64,000 nt of DNA from assembly GCF_000309385.1 (NCBI RefSeq), contig NZ_JH976537.1:3716507-3780506 (forward strand). The letters are read 5' to 3'. The stretch is from Nodosilinea nodulosa PCC 7104 (GTDB lineage: Bacteria > Cyanobacteriota > Cyanobacteriia > Phormidesmidales > Phormidesmidaceae). Both the position numbers and the translations under genes were made by a program. This document shows positions 3,982 through 50,385 of this stretch, piece after piece (position 1 is the stretch's first letter; the number at the start of each line of letters is the position of its first letter). The notes beneath the pieces are model-generated. The model saw nothing but the letters and a program-made list of their open reading frames with translations, did no database searches and had not been told where the DNA came from.

Positions 3982-4759
3982 TGTTGCGTTGTTAGGGCCG
4001 CCTGCAGGACGTTCAAGACTATGGCCAATAGTCTACAAAGTAGAAAGTAGGTAAGTCCGGTGTCTGCCATTAACAGTTACCGTTGACCTTTAGCACCAAC
4101 GTCACCTTTGGCGGTTGCGTCGACCACCAAGAGGGAATCGCCGACGACGAGACACATGCTTTCTTGACCTGCCTTATGGACGAGAGATGGGGAATACTGT
4201 GCGGCCACGTCACCTACGAGATGATGGAGAGCTACTAGACGGCGGTCGCCCCCTGGCCTTATCTGCTGCACCTCCAAAAGCGCAGAAGCACCGTTCATCA
4301 AAGAACTCAACACCTACAAAGTAAACTCCCAAACCAAAAAGAGGCATCACTACGGCTGGATAGAAGAATTCATTTATGCGTTTCTAGCCATTGCGACTGG
4401 AAACGCTTGTATATGGAATTAGGGGCCTATGCTCAGCAGCGATATACGGTCGGAGAAGAAGAAAGGATATATCTTGCTGGATAAGCGAAGACTGGGCAAG
4501 GGTAGATTATGAGTAACGATAGTCTTGTGTATTCCAGTCCCTAAAATCATTTTATATCTAGGATCCTATAAGGGCATTACTACTTCGATAGAGAGCTTTA
4601 AGTTCGTCACTATTGAAATAATTTTCAAGATGTATCATGATTACCATTCCTCTATCCTACAGTGCTGCTTCACGGCCAAATTCTGTATGAGACCTATGCC
4701 ACTTTATGATCAACAAAATATTGAGTGAATTTAATTACGATATTCTTTGGCTTGAACAC
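3982..4759. other. Gene-poor stretch with decayed cassette-like remnants
   Basis: No intact gene is visible. Right after the recombinase stop is a CGCCTAAT...GTTGTTAGGGC segment resembling one end of an integron attC site. A broken dihydrofolate-reductase-like fragment follows (separate entry). The remainder, about 4240-4759, becomes A+T-rich toward the immunity gene, and I see no convincing coding signal in it. Confidence 0.5.
4074..4238 (+). pseudogene. Relic of a RibD-C / dihydrofolate-reductase-family protein
   Basis: One frame reads like the N-terminus of the RibD_C/DHFR-like family: LTFSTNVTFGGCVDH, then EGIADDETHAFL, then GHVTYEMMESY. Family members typically read STNVSLDGCVDH and GRVTYEMMESYW. 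The start codon is missing, an in-frame stop (TAG, 4236-4238) stands where the conserved Trp (TGG) is expected, and the rest of the domain is not recognisable. It is therefore a dead fragment of about 55 codons. Confidence 0.6.
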
Positions 4760-5359
4760 TTAGAAGGCTATAAAACGTACTAAGAGCAAGCAGTAATGAA
4801 AATCTTGAAGAACTTTCCATGCTACTTCATACTCACCTGAGTCAACTTTGCAGCATAACCTATTTCCAATGAAAGCATTCTTTTTAATTCCATAAGGTTC
4901 GGTCAAATCATCGCTTCCATTTGAGGCGGCGTGAATAAGGTTCAATCGCTTATTTTCTGTATTAAATCTTCCAAGTGAGAACCACCCTTCACTTTGATCA
5001 ACTTCGGCGTTTAGAAATTCTTGTGATGGCGCTAGGTCTAAGCTGTAAACACCAAGAAAGAGTATTTTTCTGTTATACAGTAAAGGTACCCATCTACTGG
5101 AGGGGACATCCTCATCTGCTCCAATTACAAGTCCCCAAGAGCTATCAATATCTAATGGTGAGACTGTATCTTCCGTTTGACAAGCCACGTCGTAATCAGT
5201 TTGTGAATATCGGCCCGTAGCCGCTATCAATTCACTCCTTGCTTGTGCACTAGATCGAGCATCGCCTCCCTTCCAAAGTCTTAGTGCTTCATCAGGCAGA
5301 ATCAATAATGGCCCACCGTCATTGACAAACCGCATGTATTGATAAAGCCAAAAGTCCAT
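4760..5359 (-). CDS. Imm21-type immunity protein for the adjacent RHS toxin
   Basis: The 199-residue protein shows the pattern I associate with the Imm21 family: an opening F-x-N-DGGPLLILP-x-E-L-W-GG block, then DYDVACQ, then a region ending RWVPLLYNRKILFL. Imm21 proteins neutralise nuclease-type tips of polymorphic toxins. The gene starts 21 bp after the RHS gene in the same direction, the usual toxin-immunity order. It should act in the cytosol, as no signal peptide is visible. The family call is from memory of the motif pattern. Confidence 0.65.
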   Translation of the reverse strand: MDFWLYQYMRFVNDGGPLLILPDEALRLWKGGDARSSAQARSELIAATGRYSQTDYDVACQTEDTVSPLDIDSSWGLVIGADEDVPSSRWVPLLYNRKILFLGVYSLDLAPSQEFLNAEVDQSEGWFSLGRFNTENKRLNLIHAASNGSDDLTEPYGIKKNAFIGNRLCCKVDSGEYEVAWKVLQDFHYCLLLVRFIAF

Positions 5360-5380
5360 AACAAGTCTTCCTTTGAAGTT

Positions 5381-8300
5381 TCAAATAACTTCGCAGATTT
5401 TAGGATTCTGTGCACAACGAGCTTGCTGCATTATCTGCTCAACTTCATCAAATATGTTATCTGATGAAAGAATACATCCTAATATGCCGAACAATCCAGA
5501 TCCACGCTTTATGATCTGGCGAACATACCCTCCTTGAATACGGCTACAGTTCAAACATTGAGGGTACAATCTTTGAGGTCCATGTCTGGCTGGATCGTAA
5601 ACTTGACTGGGAGGCTGATGATCGGGAATGAAGCTCCCTTGCTTGGTTCCTGGAGTTTTAGACCCGCAAGTATGACAACCTGATTTTCGTCCAATTTCAT
5701 TAATTTGGCGTCGCTGTTCAGTCGTAAAATCCCTTGAAGTATCAGGGGCTGGAATAGAATCCTGTGCAAAAGTGCCTGGCTTGAGATATTTGTTTGGATC
5801 CCTTGGTTCATCTCCGAGATCATCAAAGAAACTAATTGGATTAGCATCTACATAAGAATATAAGTTCTTACTTCCTTCATATCCCAGTGGATCACGGCTT
5901 AACCACCGTTTTACCTCTGTCTCATACCATCGCTGCCCGCAAAGCATAATCTGTTGGTCAGTGTAACAGCCAAACTGTCCAACAAATTTAAAGGGGTTGC
6001 CTATGCTTTCTGTTTCCTTTGTAATTTTCCCGTACGCCTCATACTGATAAGCTGCAACAACTTTTCCTCGTCGGTCAGTCACCATCGCAGATTCTGCGCG
6101 TGGTCCACTCCCTACCCAGTAGCTCTGCTTCTCAGGCAAGTGTCTTAAAGAAACAAGCCCATTGGCACCCCAGGTGTAAATACGTTGAGGCACTCCTTCC
6201 TTGGTTACTTCACCAAGCAGAAGATCACCGAAAAATACAAAGAAGCGTTTCTGATTTCCCTCCTCCCGCGAAATCCGTAAGCCGTCCTCGTTATAGCCAT
6301 ACCGGATAACCTGGTTCTCAATGGTTCGCTGTATCAGCTTGCTTTTGGAATCCCAAACAAACTGTTCGTCTTGCAGTTGGGTCAGGTTGCCATCAGCATC
6401 ATAGGCAACTGTTGCACCAGCCAGGTTAGAGATTTTGTTAGCAGCGTCGTAGACGGCAAAGGGTTGCCCATCAAGTGTTGTCAGGTTTCCAGCGAGATCA
6501 TACCCGTAGCTACGGGTTCCTGCTGGTCCCTCTTCACGCGTCACTCGGTAAAGTTCATCGTATTGATAGCGAATCGAGGAAGAACCCGGTGATTGCACCT
6601 CAGTGATTTTTCCGGTTTTGTCTCGCTGCATTGAGAATGAGAGGGGCTGAGCTGCTTCACCTCCAGGAAGTTGATGAATAATGGAACTTAGCCAGCTACG
6701 TTGTGGATCATATGTATAAGTTGTGACCGTCTTGTTCTGGTTTTTCTGCTCGCTCAATCTTTTTTTACTGTCATACTTGAAGCGAGTAGATTCGTTAAAA
6801 TTGTTAGTGACCCTGGTAAGCCTTCCTGCTCCGTCGTACTGATAGAGCCAGGAAGCCGCAATCGCATTTCCACTTTTCCAGATGAGTTCCTGGAGTAAGC
6901 CATCTGGGAAGTATTTTGCCTCCAGTACCTGGGGAATTGTCAAACCAGATGTTGTGTAATCGTAGGTAAGAGAGGTAATACGACGGGACGCGTCATAGCC
7001 GTAGCGTGTAGTGCCAGTTAGATCTGTAACTGACTCAACTAACCCGTCAGCCGCATATCTGAACGTTGTGGTCCCTTCAGGACGATTGATAGTTTTCACT
7101 TGCCCCAAAGCATCATACGTATACGCCGTCACCTGCCCTCGGCTATTGGTGACAGAACGAATACGTCCTGCCTTATCGTAGGCATAGGTTTCTTCAGAGC
7201 CGTCTGGGTAAATCATTCGAGCAAGTTCACGGGCTGAACCAAAGCCATAGCGTGTCTCGTTACCTCTCGCATCGATAAATTTGGTTACATCGTCATCGCT
7301 ATCTCGAAGGAACGAGAGTGACCATCCCAGCGGTCCTGAGATCCGTTTCAATCCTCCACATGCCTTACAGAACTCATAGGCATAGCGAGTCCCCAGCTCA
7401 TCAATAGTTTGATCAAGGTCTTGCCCCTGATAAAGCCGTTGATAGGAACTTCCATCTCCAAAAGTACGCGCTATTTCTCGGTGAAGTGCATCAATTTTGG
7501 AGGATACGGTTGGGCTTTCAGTGGTATCTCTCCAGATGAGGAGGTCGCCAAGCTTTGAATAACTGTCAAACAACGTGGCCTTACCACTGCCATCGGTTAC
7601 TCGTCGTGGTAACCCAAGGAATGTTCCTCGTTCGTTATAGTCAATCCGTGTTACTCCTTGAGCTGAACCGTTTGGTGGACGAACTTCTGTTACTTGCCCA
7701 AACTTGTTATAGGTAAATTGCCACGACGCACCAGAGCCATCGGTGATCTTGGTAGGGTTATGAGGAAAAGCGGCATTTTCGTAGGCGTATTGAAAAAGGA
7801 TCCCACGATTGTCTTCAATCCGAAGCGGATTAACTCCTTGGTATGTAAACCGTTGGAATGCGCCTCCTTGCGATACTTCAGTAATTAGCCCGAGGTCGTT
7901 GTAGGTAAAGATGGTTGTTGTGGCACCATCTGAAATACGGGTTGGATTATGTTTATTGTCGTACTCAAGGGTGAAGACTGATGGTTCTCCTGCTCCTGCG
8001 AAAGAAGGAGTGATGATTCGTCCTACATCTCCCTTTGCTGTGAAGTCAAAGAAAGTAGTTCCTCCTTTCGCGTTCGTTTGAATAGTTCGACGGGCATAGC
8101 CGTCAGAAGCAGTTTGGTTGTACCTAAGCCCCGTTGTCTTCGTTCGAGTTGTAATGTTTGCTAAGGGAACGTCGATATCAAGGTTATTAGACCGACCTAT
8201 GTCATAGGAGAATGACAAGGTTGAATCGGGGTTTTCATCCTCAACGATCGCGGTTAATAAGCCGCGAGCATCATAGGAAAATCCAATCACGCTTGCCCGA

Positions 8301-33550: not shown

Positions 33551-34876
33551 TTAAATATTCACGTACTGGTTCATTTCCCAATCCGTGATTTGGGCGTTGA
33601 AGGCGTCCCATTCCTTGGCTTTCATCTCTAGGAAGGTTTTCGCGCCGAGTTCGCCCATCATCTCCATCAGGAGCGAGTCTTGCTTGAGGGCTTCCACGGC
33701 TTCGTAGAGGTTTTTGGGCAGGGTTTGCAGGTTGGGGAATTCGTCGCCGCGGGCGAAGAGGTTTTCGTCGATGCGATCGCCGGGGTCGGTCTGGTGTTTA
33801 ATGCCGTCGAGGCCCGCTGCGAGAATACCAGCGGTGGCCAGGTAGAGGTTGACGGCTCCGTCGATCATGCGGCACTCGAAGCGGCCCGTGTCGGGAATGC
33901 GGATCAGGTGGGAGCGATTGTTGCCGCCGTAGGAGATATAGCGCGGGCTCCAGGTGCTGCCGGAGGCGGTGCTGCTGGCCCCCAATCGGCGGTAGGAGTT
34001 GACCGTGGGCGCGCAGAGGGCGGCCAGACCTTTGCCGTGGGCCATTACCCCGCCAAGGAAGTTGTAGCCGAGGGGCGACAGGCCGCCCGCGTCGGCTCCC
34101 TCGGCAAAGGCGTTGCTGCCGCCCTGCCACAGGCTGTTGTGCACATGGCCGCCGTTGCCGGTGATGTGGCTAAAGGGTTTGGGCATAAAGGTGGCGATAA
34201 AGCCGCGCTGCTCGGCCAGGGTTTTGACCATGTATTTGAAGAACACGTGGCGATCGCACGTTGTCTTCGCATCGCTGTAGGTCCAGTTCAGCTCAAACTG
34301 GCCGTTGGCGTCTTCGTGGTCGCACTGGTAGGGCTCCCAGCCCAGGTCTTCCATGTAGGTGACCACCGTGGAGATCAGGTCAAACTGGCGCATCAGGTTG
34401 AGCTGGTCATAGCAGGGGCGCTCGGCAGTGTCCTTGGGGTCGGCGATCGCGTAGCCCGTCTCGGTCTTTCTCAGCAAAAAGAACTCCGCCTCGACCCCGG
34501 TTTTGAGGCTGTAGCCCAGCGCCGCCGCCTGATCGATCGTCTGGTTAAGCATCATCCGGGGCGCGGCGGTGAAAGGCTTCCCTTCGTAGTACACATCGCT
34601 GGTCACCCAGCCCACCGTCGGCTCCCAGGGCAGCTGAATCAGCGAGTCGGGGTCGGGCACCGCCGCAATTTCCGCCGCCTCTGGCCCCAGCCCCAGATTC
34701 GACGCAAAGGAGCAGAAAAACGCGCCGTCTCTCTCCACCGGGGCAATCTGAGCCGCAGGCACCAGCTTGGCCCTGGTGCCCCCCAGCAGATCGGTATAAG
34801 ACACTAAGAAAAACTTGATGCCGAGGGCCTTGGCCTTTTCCGCCAGACTCTGGGTTTGGGCTAACGTGCCGACCAT
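33551..34876 (-). CDS. glnT: Glutamine-synthetase-like ligase 1 (GlnT / type III, GMAS-like)
   Basis: The 441-residue protein has a beta-grasp N-domain (about 15-110) and a GS catalytic domain. Recognisable sites are the Glu motif GVEAEFFLL, DHEDANGQFELNW (metal and glutamate site), the ATP/ammonia region ITGNGGHVHNSLW and the late Arg/Glu region RFECRMIDGAVN. Length and motifs match enzymes annotated type III glutamate-ammonia ligase. That group includes gamma-glutamylmethylamide synthetase, which joins glutamate to amines. The promoter has a GTAN8TAC site. It is divergent from the amidotransferase gene. Confidence 0.82.
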   Translation of the reverse strand: MVGTLAQTQSLAEKAKALGIKFFLVSYTDLLGGTRAKLVPAAQIAPVERDGAFFCSFASNLGLGPEAAEIAAVPDPDSLIQLPWEPTVGWVTSDVYYEGKPFTAAPRMMLNQTIDQAAALGYSLKTGVEAEFFLLRKTETGYAIADPKDTAERPCYDQLNLMRQFDLISTVVTYMEDLGWEPYQCDHEDANGQFELNWTYSDAKTTCDRHVFFKYMVKTLAEQRGFIATFMPKPFSHITGNGGHVHNSLWQGGSNAFAEGADAGGLSPLGYNFLGGVMAHGKGLAALCAPTVNSYRRLGASSTASGSTWSPRYISYGGNNRSHLIRIPDTGRFECRMIDGAVNLYLATAGILAAGLDGIKHQTDPGDRIDENLFARGDEFPNLQTLPKNLYEAVEALKQDSLLMEMMGELGAKTFLEMKAKEWDAFNAQITDWEMNQYVNI

Positions 34877-34901
34877 AAAACGACTCCGAGAATTTTAGCC
34901 T

Positions 34902-34943
34902 AGTAAAACAGGCTGACGAAGGGGCTTTTGTAGCTGTAGATAC
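34902..34943 (-). promoter_or_regulatory. NtcA-type promoter of ligase gene 1
   Basis: GTAGCTGTAGATAC (34930-34943) fits the NtcA consensus GTAN8TAC. On the minus strand a TTTACT hexamer (34902-34907) follows after exactly 22 bases, the spacing of class II NtcA-activated promoters, and lies 25 bp before the ATG. TTTACT deviates from the usual TAN3T at its second base. The ligase 3 promoter has the same layout. Confidence 0.6.
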
Positions 34944-35154
34944 GAGGGGAGGTGGGCAGATACGGGAGTAGGCGGGCCTGAATCGGCGCGGCAATCTGCT
35001 CGGCCAGAGTAGTTGCGGCGATATCCAAAGCACATCGCCCCGAGTCTCAAAAGGTCAAATTCCGGTGGTGAATGCGATGCGTCCGCCTCAACCCGGGCCA
35101 GCCAGGCAGGATTGAGCTATGGGTAGGACAAACGTCACAGTTTGAGCAAATTGT

Positions 35155-35198
35155 TTGCCAATCTAGAAAAATTCTGGGATAACTTGATATAACAAGTT
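35155..35198 (+). promoter_or_regulatory. Promoter with overlapping palindromic operator, amidotransferase gene
   Basis: TTGCCA (35155-35160), a 17-bp spacer and GATAAC (35178-35183) form a sigma70-like promoter toward the amidotransferase gene. The palindrome AACTTGATATAACAAGTT (35181-35198) overlaps the -10 element. Close relatives of this palindrome lie at 45033-45050 and 50368-50385, so a repressor common to all three is likely. Confidence 0.6.
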
Positions 35199-35322
35199 TG
35201 CCTCGGTCTCCCCTCGGTCTTCTAGGACGCGTCCACACCAGGCTGTATCGTTACGGCTGAACGAGACTGCCCCCAAGCGCGGAGCTAAAGCCTGGGACTT
35301 ACACTTACGGATACTTTGGCCC

Positions 35323-36051
35323 ATGGATATTCTGGTTGTTCAACATGTTGAGGCAGATCCGGTCGGCATCCTGGGCCGATACCTGGAAGTGAAGGGAGCC
35401 TGGCTACACACCTGGCTGGTGCCCCAGCGCTCGACTCCGCCCCAGGGGCACTACGACGGTTTGATTGTGCTGGGCGGCCCCATGAACGCCTGCGAAGACG
35501 AGAAGTTCCCCCACCTGGGGCGGGTGATGGAGCTAATTTGCGAGTTTCACCGTCAGGACAAACCCGTGCTGGGCATCTGCCTGGGGGCACAGCTGATTGC
35601 CCGCGCCTTTGGCAGTCGGGTCTACCAAAATGAGCGGCCAGAACTGGGTTTCACGCCGCTGTTTCCGGTGGCGGGGGCGGCAGAGCCCTGGCTACAGGAC
35701 TACCCGGCGGGTATGCCGATGATGCAGTGGCACTTCGACACCTTTGATCTGCCCGCCGGAGCGGAGCTGCTGCTCACCAATGCAGTCTGCCAAAACCAGG
35801 CCTTTCGCGTGGGGTCTAACACCTACGGTTTGCAGTTCCATCCCGAAGTTACGCCCGAGATTGTCATGAGCTGGATGGCCTTCAAAACTGAGTGGATTGA
35901 GGCCAACTACCCCCATCTGTTTCAAGAACTGCGAGAGCAGCTGGTGTCGCACTGGGTGCAGTCGGCTCAGTTTACCGAAAAGCTGGCCAATGCCTGGTAC
36001 GACCAGGTGGTGGCCTCGGCCCAGACGGCGGCGCTGCTGCGCCAGGGGTAA
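35323..36051 (+). CDS. Class I glutamine amidotransferase-like hydrolase
   Basis: The 242-residue single-domain GATase1 protein has its triad visible: Cys86 in GICLGAQLIARAF, with His173 and Glu175 in QFHPEV. There is no synthetase domain attached, so it probably hydrolyses a gamma-glutamyl bond rather than feeding a synthetase. PuuD (gamma-glutamyl-GABA hydrolase) and AtdA2-type proteins of amine degradation have this fold and occur beside GS-like ligases. It lies 96 bp upstream of ligase gene 2 on the same strand, so the two are likely co-transcribed. Confidence 0.82.
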   Translation: MDILVVQHVEADPVGILGRYLEVKGAWLHTWLVPQRSTPPQGHYDGLIVLGGPMNACEDEKFPHLGRVMELICEFHRQDKPVLGICLGAQLIARAFGSRVYQNERPELGFTPLFPVAGAAEPWLQDYPAGMPMMQWHFDTFDLPAGAELLLTNAVCQNQAFRVGSNTYGLQFHPEVTPEIVMSWMAFKTEWIEANYPHLFQELREQLVSHWVQSAQFTEKLANAWYDQVVASAQTAALLRQG

Positions 36052-36147
36052 CCGGGGTTTGCAGGCAAGCTGCTGTAATCTCTGACGGCTGCTTGTCGAA
36101 GCCTAACTCGCTCCCGACTGCCGGGGAGAACCGTGTCGTTTTGAGGT

Positions 36148-37521
36148 TTGCAGGCTATGGCGTATCCCAATGTTGAACCCCTTTCCCCAGAGCTTCAGGC
36201 GCTTTTGCACAGCCTGGAGCAGCAGGGGGTAAAGTATGCCCTGGCCAGCTTTGTGGATATTCACGGCATGGCCAAGGGCAAGGTGGTGCCGCTGAGCCAC
36301 TTCGATCGCATGATGCAGGGTTCTGAGCTATTTACCGGCGCGGCCCTCGACGGCGTGCCTCAAGAGATCAACGACGACGAAGTGGGCACCATGCCCGACC
36401 CCGCCAGCGCCACGGTGCTGCCCTGGAACCCAGAGGTGGTCTGGTTCGCCAGCGATTTGCACCTGGGGGGACAGCCCTTTGAGGCCTGCTGCCGCACCAT
36501 TCTAAAACGAGGCCTGGAGCAGGCGGCGGCCATGGGCTATCGGTTCAACCTGGGCATTGAAACCGAGTTCTTTATTCTGAAGGACACCGAGGATGGGTTT
36601 GGGCCAGTGAGCGATCGCGACACCCTGCCCAAGGCCGCCTACGCGGTGCCCACCCTGCTGGATAACTACAAGATCCTCGACGCCATTGTCAGCGCCATGA
36701 ACGGCCTGGGTTGGGATGTGTATTCCTTTGACCACGAAGACGCCCAGGGCCAGTTTGAGACCGACTTTGCCTACTGCGACGCCCTGACCATGGCCGATCG
36801 CCTCACCTTCTTTCGGCTGATGGTGAAGGAACTGGCGCGGGAGCAGGGCTACTTCGCCAGCTTTATGCCCAAGCCCTACGCTAACCAGACCGGCAGCGGC
36901 GCCCACTACAACATGTCGCTGGCGGATCTGGAGACCGGCAAAAACCTGTTCGAAGACCCCAGCGACCCCTGCGGACTCTCGAAACTGGGCTACCAGTTTA
37001 TTGCCGGGGTGCTGCGGCACGCCAAGGCGATCGTGGCGGTCACCTGCCCTACGGTGAACAGCTACAAGCGACTGGTGCGCCAGGGCAGCATGTCGGGCTT
37101 TACCTGGGCACCCGTCTACATCTGCTACGGCAACAATAACCGCACCAACATGGTGCGCATTCCCATGGGCGGGGGCCGAGTCGAGTGCCGCGCCGCCGAC
37201 ATTTCCACCAACCTCTACCTGGGGGCGGCGATGGTTTTGGCCGCCGGGCTGGAGGGCATTGCCGAGGGGCTAGATCCCGGCCCGCCCCACACCGAAAATA
37301 TGTATACCTACTCCCTAGCCGAGCTGGCGGCCATGGGTGTTGATACCCTGCCCCGCACCCTCAGCGAGGCGGTGGAGGCCTTTGCCGCCGACCCCCTGAG
37401 TGAGGCGGTGATGGGGCCACTGATGTATAAAACCTACGTTGACTTCAAGACCCAGGAGTGGGAAGAGTACCACAGCCACGTCTCTGACTGGGAGATGCGG
37501 CGCTACCTGAAGTTTTTCTAG
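36148..37521 (+). CDS. glnT: Glutamine-synthetase-like ligase 2 (GlnT / type III, GMAS-like)
   Basis: The 457-residue protein has the same two-domain layout as ligase 1. Sites seen are GIETEFFIL, FDHEDAQGQFETDFAY, NQTGSGAHYNMSL and GRVECRAADISTNLYLG. The C-terminus WEEYHSHVSDWEMRRYLKFF resembles GMAS-type ends and differs clearly from ordinary GlnA. It follows the class I amidotransferase gene in an apparent operon. It probably makes a gamma-glutamyl amide from a small amine, but ordinary glutamine synthesis cannot be excluded. Confidence 0.82.
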   Translation: MQAMAYPNVEPLSPELQALLHSLEQQGVKYALASFVDIHGMAKGKVVPLSHFDRMMQGSELFTGAALDGVPQEINDDEVGTMPDPASATVLPWNPEVVWFASDLHLGGQPFEACCRTILKRGLEQAAAMGYRFNLGIETEFFILKDTEDGFGPVSDRDTLPKAAYAVPTLLDNYKILDAIVSAMNGLGWDVYSFDHEDAQGQFETDFAYCDALTMADRLTFFRLMVKELAREQGYFASFMPKPYANQTGSGAHYNMSLADLETGKNLFEDPSDPCGLSKLGYQFIAGVLRHAKAIVAVTCPTVNSYKRLVRQGSMSGFTWAPVYICYGNNNRTNMVRIPMGGGRVECRAADISTNLYLGAAMVLAAGLEGIAEGLDPGPPHTENMYTYSLAELAAMGVDTLPRTLSEAVEAFAADPLSEAVMGPLMYKTYVDFKTQEWEEYHSHVSDWEMRRYLKFF

Positions 37522-37618
37522 TGATGTGGGCGGCTGAGATGGCCGTCAAGCCTCAAGAATTACTGCGTGGGCCAACTTATATAAGCTGTATAAATGCAGA
37601 TCATGGTAAAAAATACAC

Positions 37619-38503
37619 ATGATCAATCATTTACCACAGCCGATGGCCTATCCTCCACAGAATCGTCACCGAAAGTCCCGGCGCTGGGTTCTGAGTTTTG
37701 TCAGTATTATCGCGGTTGTATCAGTATCTTTTGCCGCCTGGTCTTTGCCCGTACGGGTGGAGCGGGGGCTGTCGGTGCGCCAGATTCAGGGGGAGGTAAC
37801 TGTGCTGCGGCCCGGGGGTGCAGCCCCCGCCGCGATCGGCAACAGCCTCACTGCGGTGGGCGATGGATTGCGTACGGGGGCGCGATCTTCGGCGGTCTTA
37901 GCGGTCGATACCGACGTGGGCTTCTTAGATGTTTCGGAGCGCACCGAGCTGCGCATTAGCGCCCTGGAAATGGCCTCCGATGGAGGCCGTATCACCCATC
38001 TCGATGTGTCCCAGGGGCAGGTGCGTACGCGGCTGCGCCACTTTACCCACGAGGGATCTGAGTTTGAGATTCAAACCCCTGGCGGCATCAGCGGGGTGCG
38101 AGGAACCGAATTTGGCGTCAGCGTGCAGGGAGATGGCAAGACCGGCATTGCCACCCTCACCGGGGCGGTAGACACCACCGCCGCCGGCCAGACCGTGGGC
38201 GTACCGGCAGGGTTTCAAAACCTGATGCGCCCCGGTGAACCCCCCACCCAGCCAGTGCCTCTGCGAGATGACCCCGGCCTGGAGTACGAGCGACAGGTGG
38301 TGTTGGAAAACAACACTCGCTACGTCATTCTGACTGGTCGAGTGGACCCCGTAAATACGGTCTTTGTGGATAGTGTTCCTCAAATTGTCGATCGCCAGGG
38401 GGAGTTTCGCCTCAAGCGCCTGGCGACGGCCCGGCTCCGCGTCGAGGTTTTGGTTATAACGCCCCTTGGCCGCCAGGAAGTCCATGCGATTTACCTTCTC
38501 TAG
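37619..38503 (+). CDS. FecR-domain protein
   Basis: The 294-residue protein has an N-terminal hydrophobic stretch (about 22-42, SRRWVLSFVSIIAVVSVSFA) acting as signal or anchor. A FecR domain follows (about 55-200) with GDGLRTGARSSAVLAVD and GGISGVRGTEFGV. The C-terminal domain ends LRVEVLVITPLGRQEVH. It would be periplasmic. The stop overlaps the start of the CHASE2-GGDEF-EAL gene, so the two are translated together; FecR/CHASE2 partnerships recur in cyanobacteria. Confidence 0.82.
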   Translation: MINHLPQPMAYPPQNRHRKSRRWVLSFVSIIAVVSVSFAAWSLPVRVERGLSVRQIQGEVTVLRPGGAAPAAIGNSLTAVGDGLRTGARSSAVLAVDTDVGFLDVSERTELRISALEMASDGGRITHLDVSQGQVRTRLRHFTHEGSEFEIQTPGGISGVRGTEFGVSVQGDGKTGIATLTGAVDTTAAGQTVGVPAGFQNLMRPGEPPTQPVPLRDDPGLEYERQVVLENNTRYVILTGRVDPVNTVFVDSVPQIVDRQGEFRLKRLATARLRVEVLVITPLGRQEVHAIYLL

Positions 38504-41500
38504 CCTGTTTCGGCGAGGGTTAGAACCGCTACTGTTGTTGGGCATTGCCGGTTTGCTGGTGATGAGCGCCAGCGAGCTGGGGCTGCTGCTGCCCCTGGTA
38601 CAGGCAGAGTATCAGCTGCGCTTTCGCCTGCGGGGGCCGCGTCCCTGGGCCAACCAGCTGGTGCTAATTGCCGTTGACGACCCTAGCCTGGATACCCTGG
38701 GGGCGTTTCCCTGGCCGCGCCGCCGCTACGCTGAGCTGCTGCAACGGTTGCAGGATGCGCCGCCTCGGGTGGTGGTGTTTGACCTGCTCTTTAGCGACCC
38801 CAGCCCCGACGACGGCCTGTTTGCTGAAGCGATCGCCGCTCATCCCGCCGTTGTTTTGGCCTCCGCCTGGGATCGCAACGGGCAGCCCCTGCGGCCGACG
38901 CCCCCCCTGGCGGCGGCGGCCCTGGCCAGCGGCCACATTTTGCAGCATCACCAGGGGGGCTATATCCACAGCGTTGAGCCGATGATGGGCGGCCAACCGG
39001 CCCTGGCGGTGGCGACGGCAGAGGCCCTCAGCCTGACCCAGCAGGCGATGCCCTTGCCGCCGCTCGATCGCCCCCTGTGGGTCAACTGGCCTGGCTCAAC
39101 CGCCGATTTGCCCACCTACTCCTTTGCCGATGTGCTGGCGGGGCGGGTGCCGTCCCAGGCCTTTGAGGGCAAGGTGGTGCTGATTGGGGCCACGGCCCTG
39201 GGCCTCGATGACTGGGTGACGCCCTTTAATGCCGATCCCCCTGCCAGTGGCGTGTATTTGCACGGGGCGCTCATTGACAATCTGCTGCACCAGAGCTGGC
39301 TCAGGCCGGTCTCGGGAGGCTGGGCCGGGGCGTTGGCTCTGGCCCTGGGCCTGGTGGTCGTGCTCCAGGGCCAGGGCCAAAACGAAGCCTCACCTCCGGT
39401 GGATTCTCGCCGAATGCGCCTGTCGCTGGGTCAGCAGGGCGCGCTGGTGGGCGGGCTGCTGGTGGGCTGGTGGGGTCTGGCCCTGGCGCTGTTCGGCGCC
39501 AACTTCTGGCTGCCGGTGGTGGGGCCAGAGCTGCTGCTGGCGGCGGCGGGGGGCATCGGCATGGGCCAGCAGATGCTGCGCCAAAATCGCTGGCTGCGTC
39601 AGATTACGGCGGGTTTGCGCCACCGCCACGGCCCGGCCCTGGTGCTGCCCAGGGCCAATGCCACCCAGTCGGCGGTGGCGCGGGAGAGGCCGCCCGCCGA
39701 GCCCGACGCGGGGCCGGATATTCCGGCCGAGTTGGGGGCCGAGTTGGCAGCTGACCTCTTTGCAGGCGGCCCTTCGGGGGTGGCTCAACTGGTCGAACTG
39801 ACTCAGCTACTGGGGCGATCGCAGGCGATTCAGGCCGCCATTGCCCGCAGCTTACCCCTGGGCCTGGTGGCGGCGGCAGCGGATGGCAGCGTGTGGTTTG
39901 CCAACCCCCTGGCCGCCGAATGGCTGGGTTTGGCGGCGGGGGATAATCTCAATACCAGCGCCCTGGCCGCCTGGTTTGACGGGGAAACCTGGGCGCAGCT
40001 GTGGCAGGTGGTGATTGGCGGGCAGCCGGTGCCCTCCCAGGTGAGGCAGCGGGGCGATCCACCCCAGCACCGCTGGTACGAACTGCGCCTAGAGCCCCTG
40101 GCCGCCGACGCCAACATCCCCGCCGACTGGCCCCGAGGGGCAATCGTGCTGATCGAAGACATCACCTACCGCCAGCACATGGAAACAGAACTGCGGCGAC
40201 TGAACGACGGCCTAGAAGAACAGGTCCAGGCGCGCACCCGGCAGCTAGAGCACCTCAACCGATCGCTGCACGAGCAGATTGCCGAGCGGCAGCAGGCCCA
40301 AAACCAGCTGGCCTACGAAGCCCTGCACGATGCCCTGACCGGACTGCCCAATCGCCGCCAGTTTCTCAACCACCTCAGCGCCCAGTTTGGTCAACCCGAT
40401 GGAGAACTGTTTGCGGTACTGTTCTTAGACTGCGATCGCTTTAAGCTCATCAACGACTCCTTCGGCCACTGGATCGGGGATGAGCTGCTGAAGCGGGTGG
40501 CCGCCATCGTGCAGGATTGCGTGCGCCCTACCGATGTAGTGGCCCGCTTTGGCGGCGACGAATTTACCATTCTGCTGACCACCCTCGACCAGGTAGACGA
40601 CGCGATCGCCGTCGCCCAGCGCATTCGCCAGCAGTTTGCCCAACCGCTGGCCATTCAAGAGCACCAGCTGTTTACCAACACCAGCATTGGCATTGTCCTG
40701 GGCGGTTCCCAGTATCGCCATCCCGACGAGCTGCTGCGCGATGCCGACACTGCCATGTACCAGGCCAAAATCAACGGTCTTGGCTACGCCCTCTTTGAAC
40801 GCGGTATGCACCTGGACGTGCGGCGATCTTTGCAGATTGAAACCTCCCTGCGACTGGCCTTAGACCGGCAAGAGTTTCAGCTCCACTACCAGCCGATCAT
40901 CAACCTGGCTAGCCAGCAGCTGATCGGCTGTGAAGCGCTGCTGCGCTGGCTGCACCCAGACCGGGGGCTGCTTTTGCCCAGCGAGTTTTTGACCATTGCC
41001 GAAGATTCTGGGCTGATGGTGCCCATCGGCAGCTGGGTGCTGCAAGAGGCCTGTAGCCAGATGCAGCGCTGGCGCCGCCGCAGCCTAATTGTCGAGGATG
41101 CGGTGGTGAGCGTTAACCTATCGGCCACGCAGTTTTTACAGCCCAATTTGGTCTCAATCATTGATGACATTTTGGTTGACAGCGGCTTGCCCCCCGCCAA
41201 CCTCAAGCTCGAAATTACCGAAACCGTCGTGATGGAAAACCCTGACCAGGCCGTGCAGATGATTCAATCGCTGCGCGATCGCGGCATCCGCCTCAGCATC
41301 GATGACTTTGGCACCGGCTACTCATCGCTGGGCTACCTGCAACAGCTGCCCGTCGATATTCTCAAAATCGATCGCAGCTTCATCGTCAATATTCACCAAA
41401 GCTCGCAGCAGTACGGCATTGTCGAAGCGATCATTCGCCTCGCTACCCACCTCAACATTCAGGTCATTGCCGAGGGTATTGAGCATTTTCCCCAGCTGCG

Positions 41501-41606
41501 ATCGCTCAATCAGCTGGGCTGCGAATACGGCCAGGGGCACCTGTTTTCTCGCCCGCTCAGCGTGAGCCAGTTTAGCCAGTACCTGCGGCGCGGGACAGAG
41601 GAATAG
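38484..41606 (+). CDS. CHASE2-PAS-GGDEF-EAL cyclic-di-GMP signalling protein
   Basis: The 1040-residue protein is ordered as TM helix, CHASE2 (about 40-290), TM helices (about 285-375), a PAS-like domain (about 455-570, LPLGLVAAAADGSVWFANPL), a coiled segment, GGDEF (about 610-770) and EAL (about 790-1030). Active-site motifs are intact: FGGDEFTILL, EALLRWL, EITET, DDFGTGYSSLGYLQQ and IAEGIEH. I used the ATG at 38484; a TTG 18 bases earlier is in frame. It overlaps the FecR gene by 20 bp, so a FecR-CHASE2 signalling unit is likely. Confidence 0.88.
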   Translation: MRFTFSSLFRRGLEPLLLLGIAGLLVMSASELGLLLPLVQAEYQLRFRLRGPRPWANQLVLIAVDDPSLDTLGAFPWPRRRYAELLQRLQDAPPRVVVFDLLFSDPSPDDGLFAEAIAAHPAVVLASAWDRNGQPLRPTPPLAAAALASGHILQHHQGGYIHSVEPMMGGQPALAVATAEALSLTQQAMPLPPLDRPLWVNWPGSTADLPTYSFADVLAGRVPSQAFEGKVVLIGATALGLDDWVTPFNADPPASGVYLHGALIDNLLHQSWLRPVSGGWAGALALALGLVVVLQGQGQNEASPPVDSRRMRLSLGQQGALVGGLLVGWWGLALALFGANFWLPVVGPELLLAAAGGIGMGQQMLRQNRWLRQITAGLRHRHGPALVLPRANATQSAVARERPPAEPDAGPDIPAELGAELAADLFAGGPSGVAQLVELTQLLGRSQAIQAAIARSLPLGLVAAAADGSVWFANPLAAEWLGLAAGDNLNTSALAAWFDGETWAQLWQVVIGGQPVPSQVRQRGDPPQHRWYELRLEPLAADANIPADWPRGAIVLIEDITYRQHMETELRRLNDGLEEQVQARTRQLEHLNRSLHEQIAERQQAQNQLAYEALHDALTGLPNRRQFLNHLSAQFGQPDGELFAVLFLDCDRFKLINDSFGHWIGDELLKRVAAIVQDCVRPTDVVARFGGDEFTILLTTLDQVDDAIAVAQRIRQQFAQPLAIQEHQLFTNTSIGIVLGGSQYRHPDELLRDADTAMYQAKINGLGYALFERGMHLDVRRSLQIETSLRLALDRQEFQLHYQPIINLASQQLIGCEALLRWLHPDRGLLLPSEFLTIAEDSGLMVPIGSWVLQEACSQMQRWRRRSLIVEDAVVSVNLSATQFLQPNLVSIIDDILVDSGLPPANLKLEITETVVMENPDQAVQMIQSLRDRGIRLSIDDFGTGYSSLGYLQQLPVDILKIDRSFIVNIHQSSQQYGIVEAIIRLATHLNIQVIAEGIEHFPQLRSLNQLGCEYGQGHLFSRPLSVSQFSQYLRRGTEE

Positions 41607-41628
41607 GGGCCTAGCATGCTAAGCCCCT
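41605..41628 (+). terminator. Palindromic hairpin after CHASE2-GGDEF-EAL gene
   Basis: AGGGGC and GCCCCT frame an inner AGCATGCT palindrome immediately at the stop codon. There is no clear T-run, so it is either a weak terminator or a REP-like element. Confidence 0.45.
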
Positions 41629-41919
41629 ATGGCGTGCCTGATTGTGAACTGGGGTTTCCCAAATCGGATTTCGTGGATAGCAGCCGACGGGTAGGGTAGG
41701 GCATTTCTCAGAGCCAGCGTTCGAACGTTTGAACGTTCTCAACGTCTCTCAGTGCCCTAACTAACGTGACGAAGGCTATAAATGACCGCCCCCAGCCTGG
41801 TGCCCATTGCCGGAGGCAGAGCCTCCGACGAGAATCTCAATGCAGAGCACTGGAACAAGGGGCAGCGAATACCGGACTGGCACTGGCGTTCTGGGTGCTG
41901 GCTCAGCGCTCCGGGCCGC
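41629..41919. other. Gene-free convergent region with small repeats
   Basis: No gene supported. It holds three tandem near-copies of an 8-9-mer (GTTCGAAC, GTTTGAAC, GTTCTCAAC; 41719-41743) and the palindrome CGGAGGCAGAGCCTCCG (41811-41827). Confidence 0.5.
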
Positions 41920-43314
41920 TTAGCTCACGGCGGGCTTGGGCTTCACGTTGGCCGGGTCAAAAATGCCCTTGGGAATAATGCCGTGTACGCCCCAGTTGCC
42001 GTCCACCACCTGGGTAATGGCGAAGTCGGCCCCCACGGTAATTAGCGAAAAGGCCTCGTCTTCGCTCAGGTTCATGCCGTTCATCAAAAAGTCGCGCAGC
42101 TTGGCGGAGCTATCCTTCAGCGCCGGGTCGAGGGACGACAGTGTGTAGATTTCCTTCTGAGCGTCTTCGCCCAGGGCCTCCAGGTAGTTGGGGTAGGTAA
42201 AGCCGTGGACAATCCACGAGTCTGGGGTTTCGAGCAGCGGGTAGTTTACCCCCTCCAGAATGGTGCCCGCCAGGTCGGCTTTTTTATGGAGCACAAACTG
42301 AAACAGGCCGGTAATCGAGGTTTCAATGGCGGTGCCGTCCAGCTCTGAGTCGCCCTGGGAGGCGTGGGCATCGCCGCCGGAGAACAGCGCACCGGGTACG
42401 GCAACCGGATAGTACATGGCGGTGCCGATCGCAATGTTGCGGTCATCCAAATTGCCCCCAAAGTAGCTGGGCGGAATGGAATCGACCACATCGGCCTCGC
42501 TGGGGGCCACGCCCATGGAGCCGAGGTGCAGCCGCAGCGGCACTTTTACTCCTTCTAGCGTCTCTTCGATTTCGGTAACGGTGTCGTGGTTGACCACCAC
42601 GCCGGGATAGTCGATGGTTTCGTGCACCTTGCCGTCGGGGCTGGTTTGGGGCATCCACTTAAACCGATAGGCGGCGGTGGCGTAGTCGTTAGCAGGGTCC
42701 ATCTCGTAGATGGTGATCACTTCGCGGGGCTTGGGTTCGGTTTTCAGGTTGTCGTACTGGAAGCCCCACCAGGCGGCGGCATTAGACCCGAAGGTTTTGC
42801 CCCCGTACTTGGGGTTGCCGCTGGGCCGCAGCATCAGATCGACAACTTTCACCTCCAGCAGGTCGCCGGGTTCGGCCCCGCACACGTAGACCGGGCCGGT
42901 GAGAATGTGGACGCCGGGGCCGCGATCGCTCACCGTTTTCTCCTCAGCGGTCCAGTGGTAAATCGCCTCGATCGCCGGGTCGCCGGAAATCATGCGATCG
43001 AAGTCGTCGCCCGCGTGGTGGGTAATGGTTTCCAAAGTGACATAGTCCTGGGAATTGACCGTAATCACCGGAGCCAGATTTTTGCTGTAGTAGCCCCAGT
43101 GCACGGTCTCGGGGCTGGCCGCCACCCTGTAGTGGCGGGGACTGGCCGCAGCACTGCCACAGCTGGTGGGCACGGTACTTTCGATGGGCGGTACGGCAGC
43201 GCTGGCCTGGGTCATGCCCATGGGCAAAAAGCTAGCCCCAAAACAGAGAACGACCGTAGCCATGAACAACGACGGCCAAATCTTAGGCCACCGTTTTTTG
43301 CGATTTTCAGACAT
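41920..43314 (-). CDS. Exported acetamidase/formamidase family protein
   Basis: The 464-residue protein begins with a signal peptide (about residues 8-45, ending MTQASAA). The FmdA_AmdA domain follows, with VTLETITHHAGDD, YPGVVVNHDTV-type and GDAHASQGDSELDGTAIET blocks. Start set at 43314 because AGGAG lies eight bases before this ATG; a longer frame adds 27 residues without an RBS. Family members release ammonia from formamide or short amides. Being exported, it would act in the periplasm, upstream of ammonia assimilation by the neighbouring ligases. Confidence 0.82.
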   Translation of the reverse strand: MSENRKKRWPKIWPSLFMATVVLCFGASFLPMGMTQASAAVPPIESTVPTSCGSAAASPRHYRVAASPETVHWGYYSKNLAPVITVNSQDYVTLETITHHAGDDFDRMISGDPAIEAIYHWTAEEKTVSDRGPGVHILTGPVYVCGAEPGDLLEVKVVDLMLRPSGNPKYGGKTFGSNAAAWWGFQYDNLKTEPKPREVITIYEMDPANDYATAAYRFKWMPQTSPDGKVHETIDYPGVVVNHDTVTEIEETLEGVKVPLRLHLGSMGVAPSEADVVDSIPPSYFGGNLDDRNIAIGTAMYYPVAVPGALFSGGDAHASQGDSELDGTAIETSITGLFQFVLHKKADLAGTILEGVNYPLLETPDSWIVHGFTYPNYLEALGEDAQKEIYTLSSLDPALKDSSAKLRDFLMNGMNLSEDEAFSLITVGADFAITQVVDGNWGVHGIIPKGIFDPANVKPKPAVS

Positions 43315-43453
43315 TTTTTGTCTCCTGAAAGGATTTACGCCCATAGGCTCTTTTATGCTCATTGAGATAGTGACTGGCTTCTGTATAGTAGGCAACGCTA
43401 TTGTTTAGATAAAGCACTGCAATGTTAAGCCCGGTAAGCCCCGCCCACCCTCT

Positions 43454-43485
43454 CACCCATCTACCCCGTCACCCATCTACCCCTA
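43454..43485. repeat. Two tandem 16-mers CACCCATCTACCCC(GT/TA)
   Basis: The repeat lies just at the 3' end of ligase gene 3. Related pairs occur directly before the start codons at 51720 and 54573. Confidence 0.6.
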
Positions 43486-44982
43486 CGGCAGGCAGTCCAT
43501 GTAGTTCTCCATGTCCCAGTTGGTGGTGGTGGCCAAAAACCGCTCCCACTCGTCGCGCTTGTACTGGTCGTAGAGGCGGTACATCTCCCCCGGCAGCGCC
43601 GACTGGATCACCTCGTCGGTGGCCAGCGCATCCAGCGCTTCCCCCAGCGACATCGGCAGCTTTTTCACCTGCTTACCGCTGTCCATCGCCTCGTAGATGT
43701 TGCGCTGCTCGGGCTGACCGGGGTCGATTTGGTTGCTGAGGCCGTCGTCAAAGGCCTTGAGAATGGCGGCGGCCATTAGGTAGGGGTTCACCATCGAATC
43801 TACGGCGCGGTACTCAAACCGACCCGGGGCCGACACCCGCAGGCCGCAGGTGCGGTTCTGGTAGCCCCAGTCGGAGTAAACCGGAGCCCAAAAGCCCGCA
43901 TCCCACAGGCGGCGGTAGGAGTTAACCGTCGAGCAGCCGATCGCCGTTAGGGCAGGCAAATGCTCGATCACGCCGCCAATGCAGTGCAGCCCCACCTGGC
44001 CGGGAATGCGCTTGGAGGTGCCTTCCACAGGCATAAACGTGTTTTCGCCGCCCTGGCTGTAGGTGTAGTTGCCCTCTAGACCGGGCAGGCTCTCGAAGCC
44101 AAACATCTTAATGGCTGTATCGCCGCCCCGCCACAGCGACAGGTTGTGGTGGCAGCCCGAGGCCGACACCCCCATAAACGGCTTCGACATAAAGCAGGCG
44201 ATCAGGTTGAACTCGCGGGCCACCTGGGCACAGATCTGACGGTAGGTGGTGAGGCGATCGCAGGTCCGCACCGCATCGTCAAACATAAAGTTAAGTTCCA
44301 GCTGCCCTGGCGCATCCTCATGGTCGCCCTGGATCATGTCCAGCCCCATGGCCCGCCCGTACTCAATCACCCGCAAAAACACCGGACGCAGCTCCTCAAA
44401 CTGGTCGATGTGGTAGCAGTTGGGCTTGGTAACGCCGCCGTTGGGCTTGCCGTCGGGGCCTTTTTTCAGCCACATCATCTCCGGCTCGCAGCCGTGGCGC
44501 AGCTGCAAGCCGTGCTTGGCCTGAAACTCAGCGTGGATGCGCTTAAAGTTGCCGCGACAGTCGCCAGTCAGAAACGCCGCCGCATCCACCTCCTCTTCGC
44601 GGTTGCGAAAGCAGACGCAGTAGACCCGCGCCACCCGCTTATCCCACGGCAGCTGGCAAAAGGTTTCGGGATCTGGAATGGCCACCAGCTCCGCCGCTTC
44701 CGGCCCATAGCCCAGGTACTGGCTGCGGCGATCCATCGCCAGGTTGACCGTGGCCCCGTAGACCAGCTGAAAGCCGCTCTCAGCGGTGGTTTCCCAGTAG
44801 TCAGCGGGGATGCCCTTGCCGACAATGCGCCCGGTGATGGAGACAAACTGGTAGTAAATATATTGAATGCCCAATTCGTCGATTTTGGTGCGCACCTGCT
44901 TGACTAGCTCGGCGCGCCCCTCGGCGTAGACGTAGCGCTCTAGATCGGTTGAGGTGTCAGTCCGCGTTAATACTCCAGTCAC
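43483..44982 (-). CDS. Glutamine-synthetase-like ligase 3
   Basis: The 499-residue protein is the longest of the three ligases and the most divergent. It has the beta-grasp domain and a GS catalytic core: GCEPEMMWL, GDHEDAPGQLELNF, VSASGCHHNLSLW and GRFEYRAVDSMVNPYL. The same DHED...GQ-E and terminal W-x-M-x-x-Y features tie it to ligases 1 and 2. Its promoter carries both the palindromic operator and an NtcA-type site. Its amine substrate is unknown; the divergence suggests one different from that of ligases 1 and 2. Confidence 0.82.
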   Translation of the reverse strand: MTGVLTRTDTSTDLERYVYAEGRAELVKQVRTKIDELGIQYIYYQFVSITGRIVGKGIPADYWETTAESGFQLVYGATVNLAMDRRSQYLGYGPEAAELVAIPDPETFCQLPWDKRVARVYCVCFRNREEEVDAAAFLTGDCRGNFKRIHAEFQAKHGLQLRHGCEPEMMWLKKGPDGKPNGGVTKPNCYHIDQFEELRPVFLRVIEYGRAMGLDMIQGDHEDAPGQLELNFMFDDAVRTCDRLTTYRQICAQVAREFNLIACFMSKPFMGVSASGCHHNLSLWRGGDTAIKMFGFESLPGLEGNYTYSQGGENTFMPVEGTSKRIPGQVGLHCIGGVIEHLPALTAIGCSTVNSYRRLWDAGFWAPVYSDWGYQNRTCGLRVSAPGRFEYRAVDSMVNPYLMAAAILKAFDDGLSNQIDPGQPEQRNIYEAMDSGKQVKKLPMSLGEALDALATDEVIQSALPGEMYRLYDQYKRDEWERFLATTTNWDMENYMDCLP

Positions 44983-45023
44983 CGTGAGACCTCCTAGGGT
45001 TGCAGCGCAGCAAGAATGGTCTC

Positions 45024-45065
45024 AGTAAAGCCAACTTGTTATGACAAGTTTGTAGCCGTTGATAC
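45024..45065 (-). promoter_or_regulatory. NtcA-type promoter with embedded palindromic operator, ligase gene 3
   Basis: GTAGCCGTTGATAC (45052-45065) fits GTAN8TAC. The palindrome AACTTGTTATGACAAGTT (45033-45050) comes next, then TTTACT (45024-45029, minus-strand reading) exactly 22 bases from the NtcA site. The operator thus fills the gap between activator site and -10. This implies activation by NtcA under nitrogen shortage and repression lifted by a substrate. Confidence 0.65.
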
Positions 45066-50367: not shown

Positions 50368-50385
50368 AACTTATTATAACAAGTA
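50368..50385. promoter_or_regulatory. Palindromic operator between binding-protein and dioxygenase genes
   Basis: AACTTATTATAACAAGTA, read on the minus strand, contains TGTTATAAT, a perfect extended -10 for the binding-protein gene. It matches the operators at 35181 and 45033 over the 16-mer ACTTrtTATaACAAGT. It lies in the divergent gap shared with the dioxygenase gene at 50496, so it could control both. Confidence 0.6.

Follow-up and report, generated by a model that had tools for sequence, protein, structure and literature searches.

We suggest that two glutamine-synthetase-like ligase genes in this DNA, ligase 1 and ligase 3, are transcribed from class II NtcA promoters, and that ligase 3 has in addition a repressor switch of the GntR/HutC type, a reading to which we give a probability of about 0.8. 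Each gene is preceded by GTAN8TAC, a gap of 22 bp and the hexamer TTTACT, and the gap at ligase 3 holds an 18-bp palindrome. The preliminary description of this DNA had pointed to both the shared arrangement and the palindrome, and it was right to the base. The window, which is the whole stretch of 64,000 nucleotides analysed, contains the following elements of the two promoters.

33551-34876, minus strand: ligase 1, a GmaS-like gamma-glutamyl amine ligase of the glutamine-synthetase type, 441 aa (TIGR03105, 585.6 bits)
34895, minus strand: inferred transcription start of ligase 1, an A, the 7th base past the hexamer
34902-34907, minus strand: TTTACT, probable -10 element of ligase 1 (its fixed distance is kept in orthologues)
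34908-34929, minus strand: 22-nt gap of the ligase 1 promoter
34930-34943, minus strand: NtcA-type site GTATCTACAGCTAC of ligase 1 (motif search and orthologue comparison)
43483-44982, minus strand: ligase 3, glutamine-synthetase-like, 499 aa (Gln-synt_C; TIGR03105 at 298 bits, below the cut-off)
45017, minus strand: inferred transcription start of ligase 3, an A
45024-45029, minus strand: TTTACT, probable -10 element of ligase 3 (orthologue comparison)
45030-45051, minus strand: 22-nt gap of the ligase 3 promoter
45033-45050, no strand: predicted 18-bp palindromic operator AACTTGTCATAACAAGTT inside that gap (the same motif precedes a GntR/UTRA gene)
45052-45065, minus strand: NtcA-type site GTATCAACGGCTAC of ligase 3 (motif search and orthologue comparison)

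We propose that under nitrogen shortage, when 2-oxoglutarate is high, an NtcA dimer would occupy GTAN8TAC centred at -41.5, taking the place of a -35 box, and would bring RNA polymerase to TTTACT as the -10 element of both ligase 1 and ligase 3. At ligase 3, a repressor of the GntR/HutC type would sit on the palindrome, with the NtcA site on one side and the -10 element on the other, and keep the polymerase out. A small effector would release the repressor, and this effector is probably either an amine or a pathway product. Because transcription would need both activation by NtcA and release of the repressor by its effector, ligase 3 would be expressed only if nitrogen shortage coincides with the presence of the substrate, as in an AND gate. 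Ligase 1 would be under NtcA, and this operator is absent from its core promoter. The dual control by nitrogen and substrate that had been proposed earlier has acquired a candidate regulator, and it would apply to ligase 3 only.

The palindrome and its candidate regulator

The features that bear on the second part of this reading are a regulator gene elsewhere in the genome and two further palindromes in the window.

G000:C1:4147720-4148481: gene of the GntR/HutC-type regulator, with GntR and UTRA domains
35181-35198 of the window, no strand: palindrome AACTTGATATAACAAGTT, a probable HutC-type operator in the intergenic region between ligase 1 and the amidotransferase gene, outside the ligase 1 core promoter
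50368-50385 of the window, no strand: operator-like palindrome AACTTATTATAACAAGTA between divergent SBP_bac_3 and PhyH genes

Both domains of the regulator, PF00392 (GntR) and PF07702 (UTRA), score above cut-off; among solved structures, those of NagR/YvoA and DasR come closest to the regulator. A perfect copy of CTTGTNATNACAAG stands just upstream of the gene in 23 of 23 orthologues of at least 65% identity. Such a copy directly before a regulator's own gene is the usual sign of autoregulation, so the regulator is probably autoregulated; and because the same palindrome precedes it in all these close orthologues, the gap at ligase 3 most likely holds its operator. The motif is rare genome-wide. 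It was found in 29 of the 59 genomes searched, mostly as one copy at ligase 3 and one at the GntR/UTRA gene. Its GT-N4-AC spacing is that of operators of the HutC subfamily, which is little documented in cyanobacteria (1 of 389 regulators analysed) (PMC4494728). The regulator shares with NagR/YvoA, DasR and HutC the GntR and UTRA domains, a GT-N4-AC palindrome and an operator at its own gene, but the predicted operator here differs from theirs in lying inside an NtcA promoter.

It is possible, though we consider it unlikely, that another regulator binds the palindrome at ligase 3, or that the protein bound there activates rather than represses. The gene of our candidate is about 386 kb away, and motif and regulator pair imperfectly across genomes: one ligase 3 gene has no site although a 54% identical GntR homologue is present (G058), and two genomes have the palindrome and no GntR match of at least 50% (G003, G054). 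A paralogue of the regulator could also be considered, as one lies near a similar site, CTTGTAATTACAAG. The perfect motif before the regulator in every close orthologue and the HutC-type spacing speak for the candidate, and a protein placed between an activator site and a -10 element should stand in the way of polymerase, which argues against activation. In two genomes of the same family (G031 and G035), ligase 3 keeps GTAN8TAC-N22-TTTACT and the palindrome is absent; these genomes have no close orthologue of the regulator (none in one case, a 40% match in the other).

Several observations concern the surroundings of this regulator and its paralogue. The CTTGTAATTACAAG palindrome lies 5' of a Rieske-type oxygenase gene (L008:1501-1518; G000:C1:5217174), about 4 kb from the paralogue, which is 42% identical to the regulator, and the variant recurs in other genomes. 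A gene of the fatty-acid-desaturase family (L005:420-1355) is divergent from the regulator gene, the operator region being common to both. In six regulator orthologues (L083, L084, L087, L094, L095 and L097), the aligned stretch is interrupted by an in-frame stop, which may mean that the match extends beyond the true start.

The motif seems to extend to other genes, which may serve the uptake and use of amines. The AACTTATTATAACAAGTA palindrome is related to that of ligase 3, and the solute-binding protein and PhyH genes that it separates lie 5 kb from ligase 3 in the window. In other genera, these two genes adjoin ligase 3 and share its motif, which in one case (L129) is also found upstream of an ammonium-transporter-family gene. 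Elsewhere in the genome, matches to the palindrome with 3 mismatches did not rise above the background given by the reversed control, and a few of them were inspected. On balance we are inclined to believe that a two-input promoter exists in several cyanobacterial families, in which the operator of a HutC-type substrate repressor lies between the NtcA site and a conserved -10 element that departs from TAN3T, and that it controls a set of genes for the scavenging of organic amines, comprising ligase 3, the solute-binding protein, the PhyH-type oxygenase and, in some genera, the ammonium-transporter-family gene.

A precedent for two such inputs is nirA, whose promoter is under dual control by NtcA and NtcB, a LysR-family activator. 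Ligase 3 resembles it in the pairing of the global nitrogen regulator with a pathway-specific one, but the second regulator of ligase 3 is of the HutC type, is probably a repressor, and would overlap the core promoter.

NtcA and the geometry of the promoters

The host genome groups with cyanobacteria of the Nodosilinea/Leptolyngbya type and, in a profile search, was found to encode a true NtcA (TIGR03697, 385 bits against a cut-off of 245). The genome-wide counts given here are from pattern searches. GTAN8TAC-N22-TAN3T has 13 matches in the genome, compared to 10 for the reversed control, and the genes 3' of these matches include what we take, from their translations, to be glnA, nirA, urtA and a binding protein of the nitrate-transport type. 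The two ligase promoters have the same spacing as these matches and, like most of them, TACA or TACAAA after the site. The canonical layout was not found at the locus of ntcA itself, which is consistent with the ntcA promoter being known as non-canonical (PMC3898017).

In canonical NtcA-activated promoters, the site is centred at -41.5 and the -10 box has the form TAN3T (PMC3898017). If transcription of the ligases starts at the 7th base past the hexamer, their sites are also centred at -41.5. This base is a purine in 24 of 28 ligase 3 orthologues and in 23 of 24 ligase 1 orthologues. The likeness to the class II promoters of glnA, urtA, nirA and ntcB thus includes the centre of GTAN8TAC relative to the inferred start, the 22 bp to the -10 element and target genes for nitrogen scavenging; the differences are TTTACT in place of TAN3T and, at ligase 3, the second, predicted operator within the spacer. 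From the presence of NtcA, the conservation described below, the geometry shared with targets in the same genome and the purine at the implied start, we infer that NtcA activates both genes, as had been supposed.

The sites might instead be bound by another protein of the CRP/FNR family, which we regard as improbable. Six further matches to the NtcA model, all weaker, were found in the genome, and members of the family recognise similar sites. Cyanobacterial CRP sites, however, are TGTGAN6TCACA (PMC2633013), while the ligase sites keep GTA and TAC together with the geometry of glnA, nirA and urtA in this same genome.

The -10 hexamer is where the promoters depart from the canonical class. The preliminary description had taken the spacing for that of NtcA-activated promoters, and while the site, the 22 bp and the implied centre at -41.5 agree with this, TTTACT, which is found in both ligases and in most orthologues, has a T where TAN3T has an A, at position 2. 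The deviation is itself conserved. We believe that it weakens membership of the textbook class but does not weaken the case that these promoters work as NtcA-activated promoters. Upstream of ligase 3, the search for sigma-70 promoters yielded none that has a proper -35 box.

Equally doubtful in our view is the possibility that NtcA binds as a repressor or without effect and that the working promoter lies elsewhere. At ligase 1, TCGTCA-N16-TAAAAT (34919-34892) was the only sigma-70-like promoter found, and it could be proposed for this role. We rejected it, as it is not conserved in orthologues: most of them have TGAAAC or a similar hexamer in place of TAAAAT, whereas TTTACT is retained. With a start set by TAAAAT, moreover, the transcript would have hardly any leader ahead of the ATG at 34876. 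As for repression, genes repressed by NtcA carry the box downstream of -35 (PMC3898017). TAN3T hexamers exist at other spacings in the ligase 1 promoter, namely TAGGCT at a gap of 27 and TAAAAT at a gap of 32, and neither is conserved. An inverted repeat, CAGCCT-N8-AGGCTG, flanks TTTACT of ligase 1 (34896-34915, minus strand). The copy in the window has 5 of 6 pairs, and 5 or 6 of the 6 pairs are present in 20 of 26 Nodosilinea orthologues; it could be the operator of a further regulator or a result of shared descent.

Conservation among orthologues

The window by itself does not decide whether the two promoters are meaningful, because GTAN8TAC is at the level of shuffled sequence (4 found, 3.9 expected, with no enrichment over shuffles) and the N8 segments of the two sites are mostly the same, agreeing at 6 of 8 positions. 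In the genome of 6.89 Mb, the full GTAN8TAC-N22-TTTACT has three matches, and the ligase promoters account for two of them. Because of the similar N8 and because GTATCNACNGCTAC was found nowhere else in the genome by pattern search, the promoters of ligase 1 and ligase 3 may share a common descent and not be independent.

We therefore rely on the comparison of orthologous promoters, one of the checks suggested at the outset, which showed that the element is kept across cyanobacterial families and absent from proteobacterial homologues. Regions upstream of ligase 3 were taken from 34 cyanobacterial homologues and from 46 others, proteobacterial or otherwise non-cyanobacterial, of which 45 were readable, and were scored for matches to the 12 positions of GTA, TAC and TTTACT at fixed spacing. 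All 12 positions matched in 23 of the 34 cyanobacterial regions and 11 or 12 in 28, while none of the 45 readable others reached 10. Among 6800 shuffled controls, three reached 11 and none reached 12. For ligase 1, a full score was obtained in 24 of 29 readable orthologues and a score of 11 in 2 more (26/29). In genera other than Nodosilinea, pairwise identity was 0.96 for GTA/TAC and 0.89 for the hexamer, both inflated by anchoring on the motif, compared with 0.47 for N8 and 0.28-0.33 for the flanks, which anchoring does not affect, as it does not affect the proteobacterial figures. TTTACT stood at a gap of 22 in 23 of 25 pairings among ligase 3 orthologues.

The element is not universal. At ligase 3, the site has one change in L126-L128 and is damaged or missing also in L049, L050, L133, L140, L141 and L045, and L131 scored low, yet has a complete element about 650 bp upstream. 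At ligase 1, it is damaged or missing in L060, L062, L077, L079 and L080. In Kaiparowitsia (L141), where the NtcA element is absent, a flavin-containing monooxygenase-like gene (4568-5917) lies directly 5' of ligase 3.

Coincidence, or a functionless likeness inherited by two neighbouring promoters, was suggested by the chance frequency of GTAN8TAC in the window and the similar N8, and can practically be set aside, since the orthologue comparison already contradicts it: conservation across families is selective, N8 and flanks have diverged, and the proteobacterial homologues and the shuffles lack the element. An effect of base composition was rejected on the same comparisons. The earlier statement that coincidence was unlikely is thus borne out, by the orthologues and not by the statistics of the window.

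The ligases and the significance of their proposed control

Ligase 1 is 54% identical to the GmaS of Rhodovulum sp. 12E13 (PDB 7cql; 231 of 427 positions). GmaS is characterized by the catalytic residues Asp177, Glu186 and Arg312, by a Trp replacing the flap Glu of glutamine synthetase and by the lack of Asp50' (PMC7948447). Residues matching Asp177, Glu186, Arg312 and Trp300 are present in ligase 1, and the position in the Asp50' loop has no Asp. Judged from its sequence, ligase 1 is probably a gamma-glutamylmethylamide-type synthetase. The closest structure to ligase 2 is that of a glutamate-methylamine ligase, and the distance to solved enzymes is greater for ligase 3. Proteobacterial homologues of ligase 3 adjoin glutamate-synthase-like genes, which suggests a role in amine metabolism without pinning down the substrate. 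The region 15891-56501 of the window is rich in genes suited to amine breakdown, with the three glutamine-synthetase-like ligases, a class-I amidotransferase, aldehyde dehydrogenases, an iron alcohol dehydrogenase, a formamidase-family protein, a copper amine oxidase, a Rieske protein and a nitrilase-family protein.

NtcA promoters and HutC operators are each already known, but a search of the open literature turned up no description of the two placed together in this way, of such target genes or of the conserved TTTACT. In particular, none of the open papers searched reported ligases of this kind as NtcA-controlled, or placed an operator of the HutC type within the promoter of an NtcA target. 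If our reading is true, ligases for organic amines would join the NtcA regulon, and a candidate amine-sensing repressor would be at hand with a defined operator. The conserved TTTACT provides a test of how strict the TAN3T rule is for NtcA promoters. The arrangement would suggest that glutamylated amines may serve cyanobacteria as a nitrogen source under tight control by two signals.
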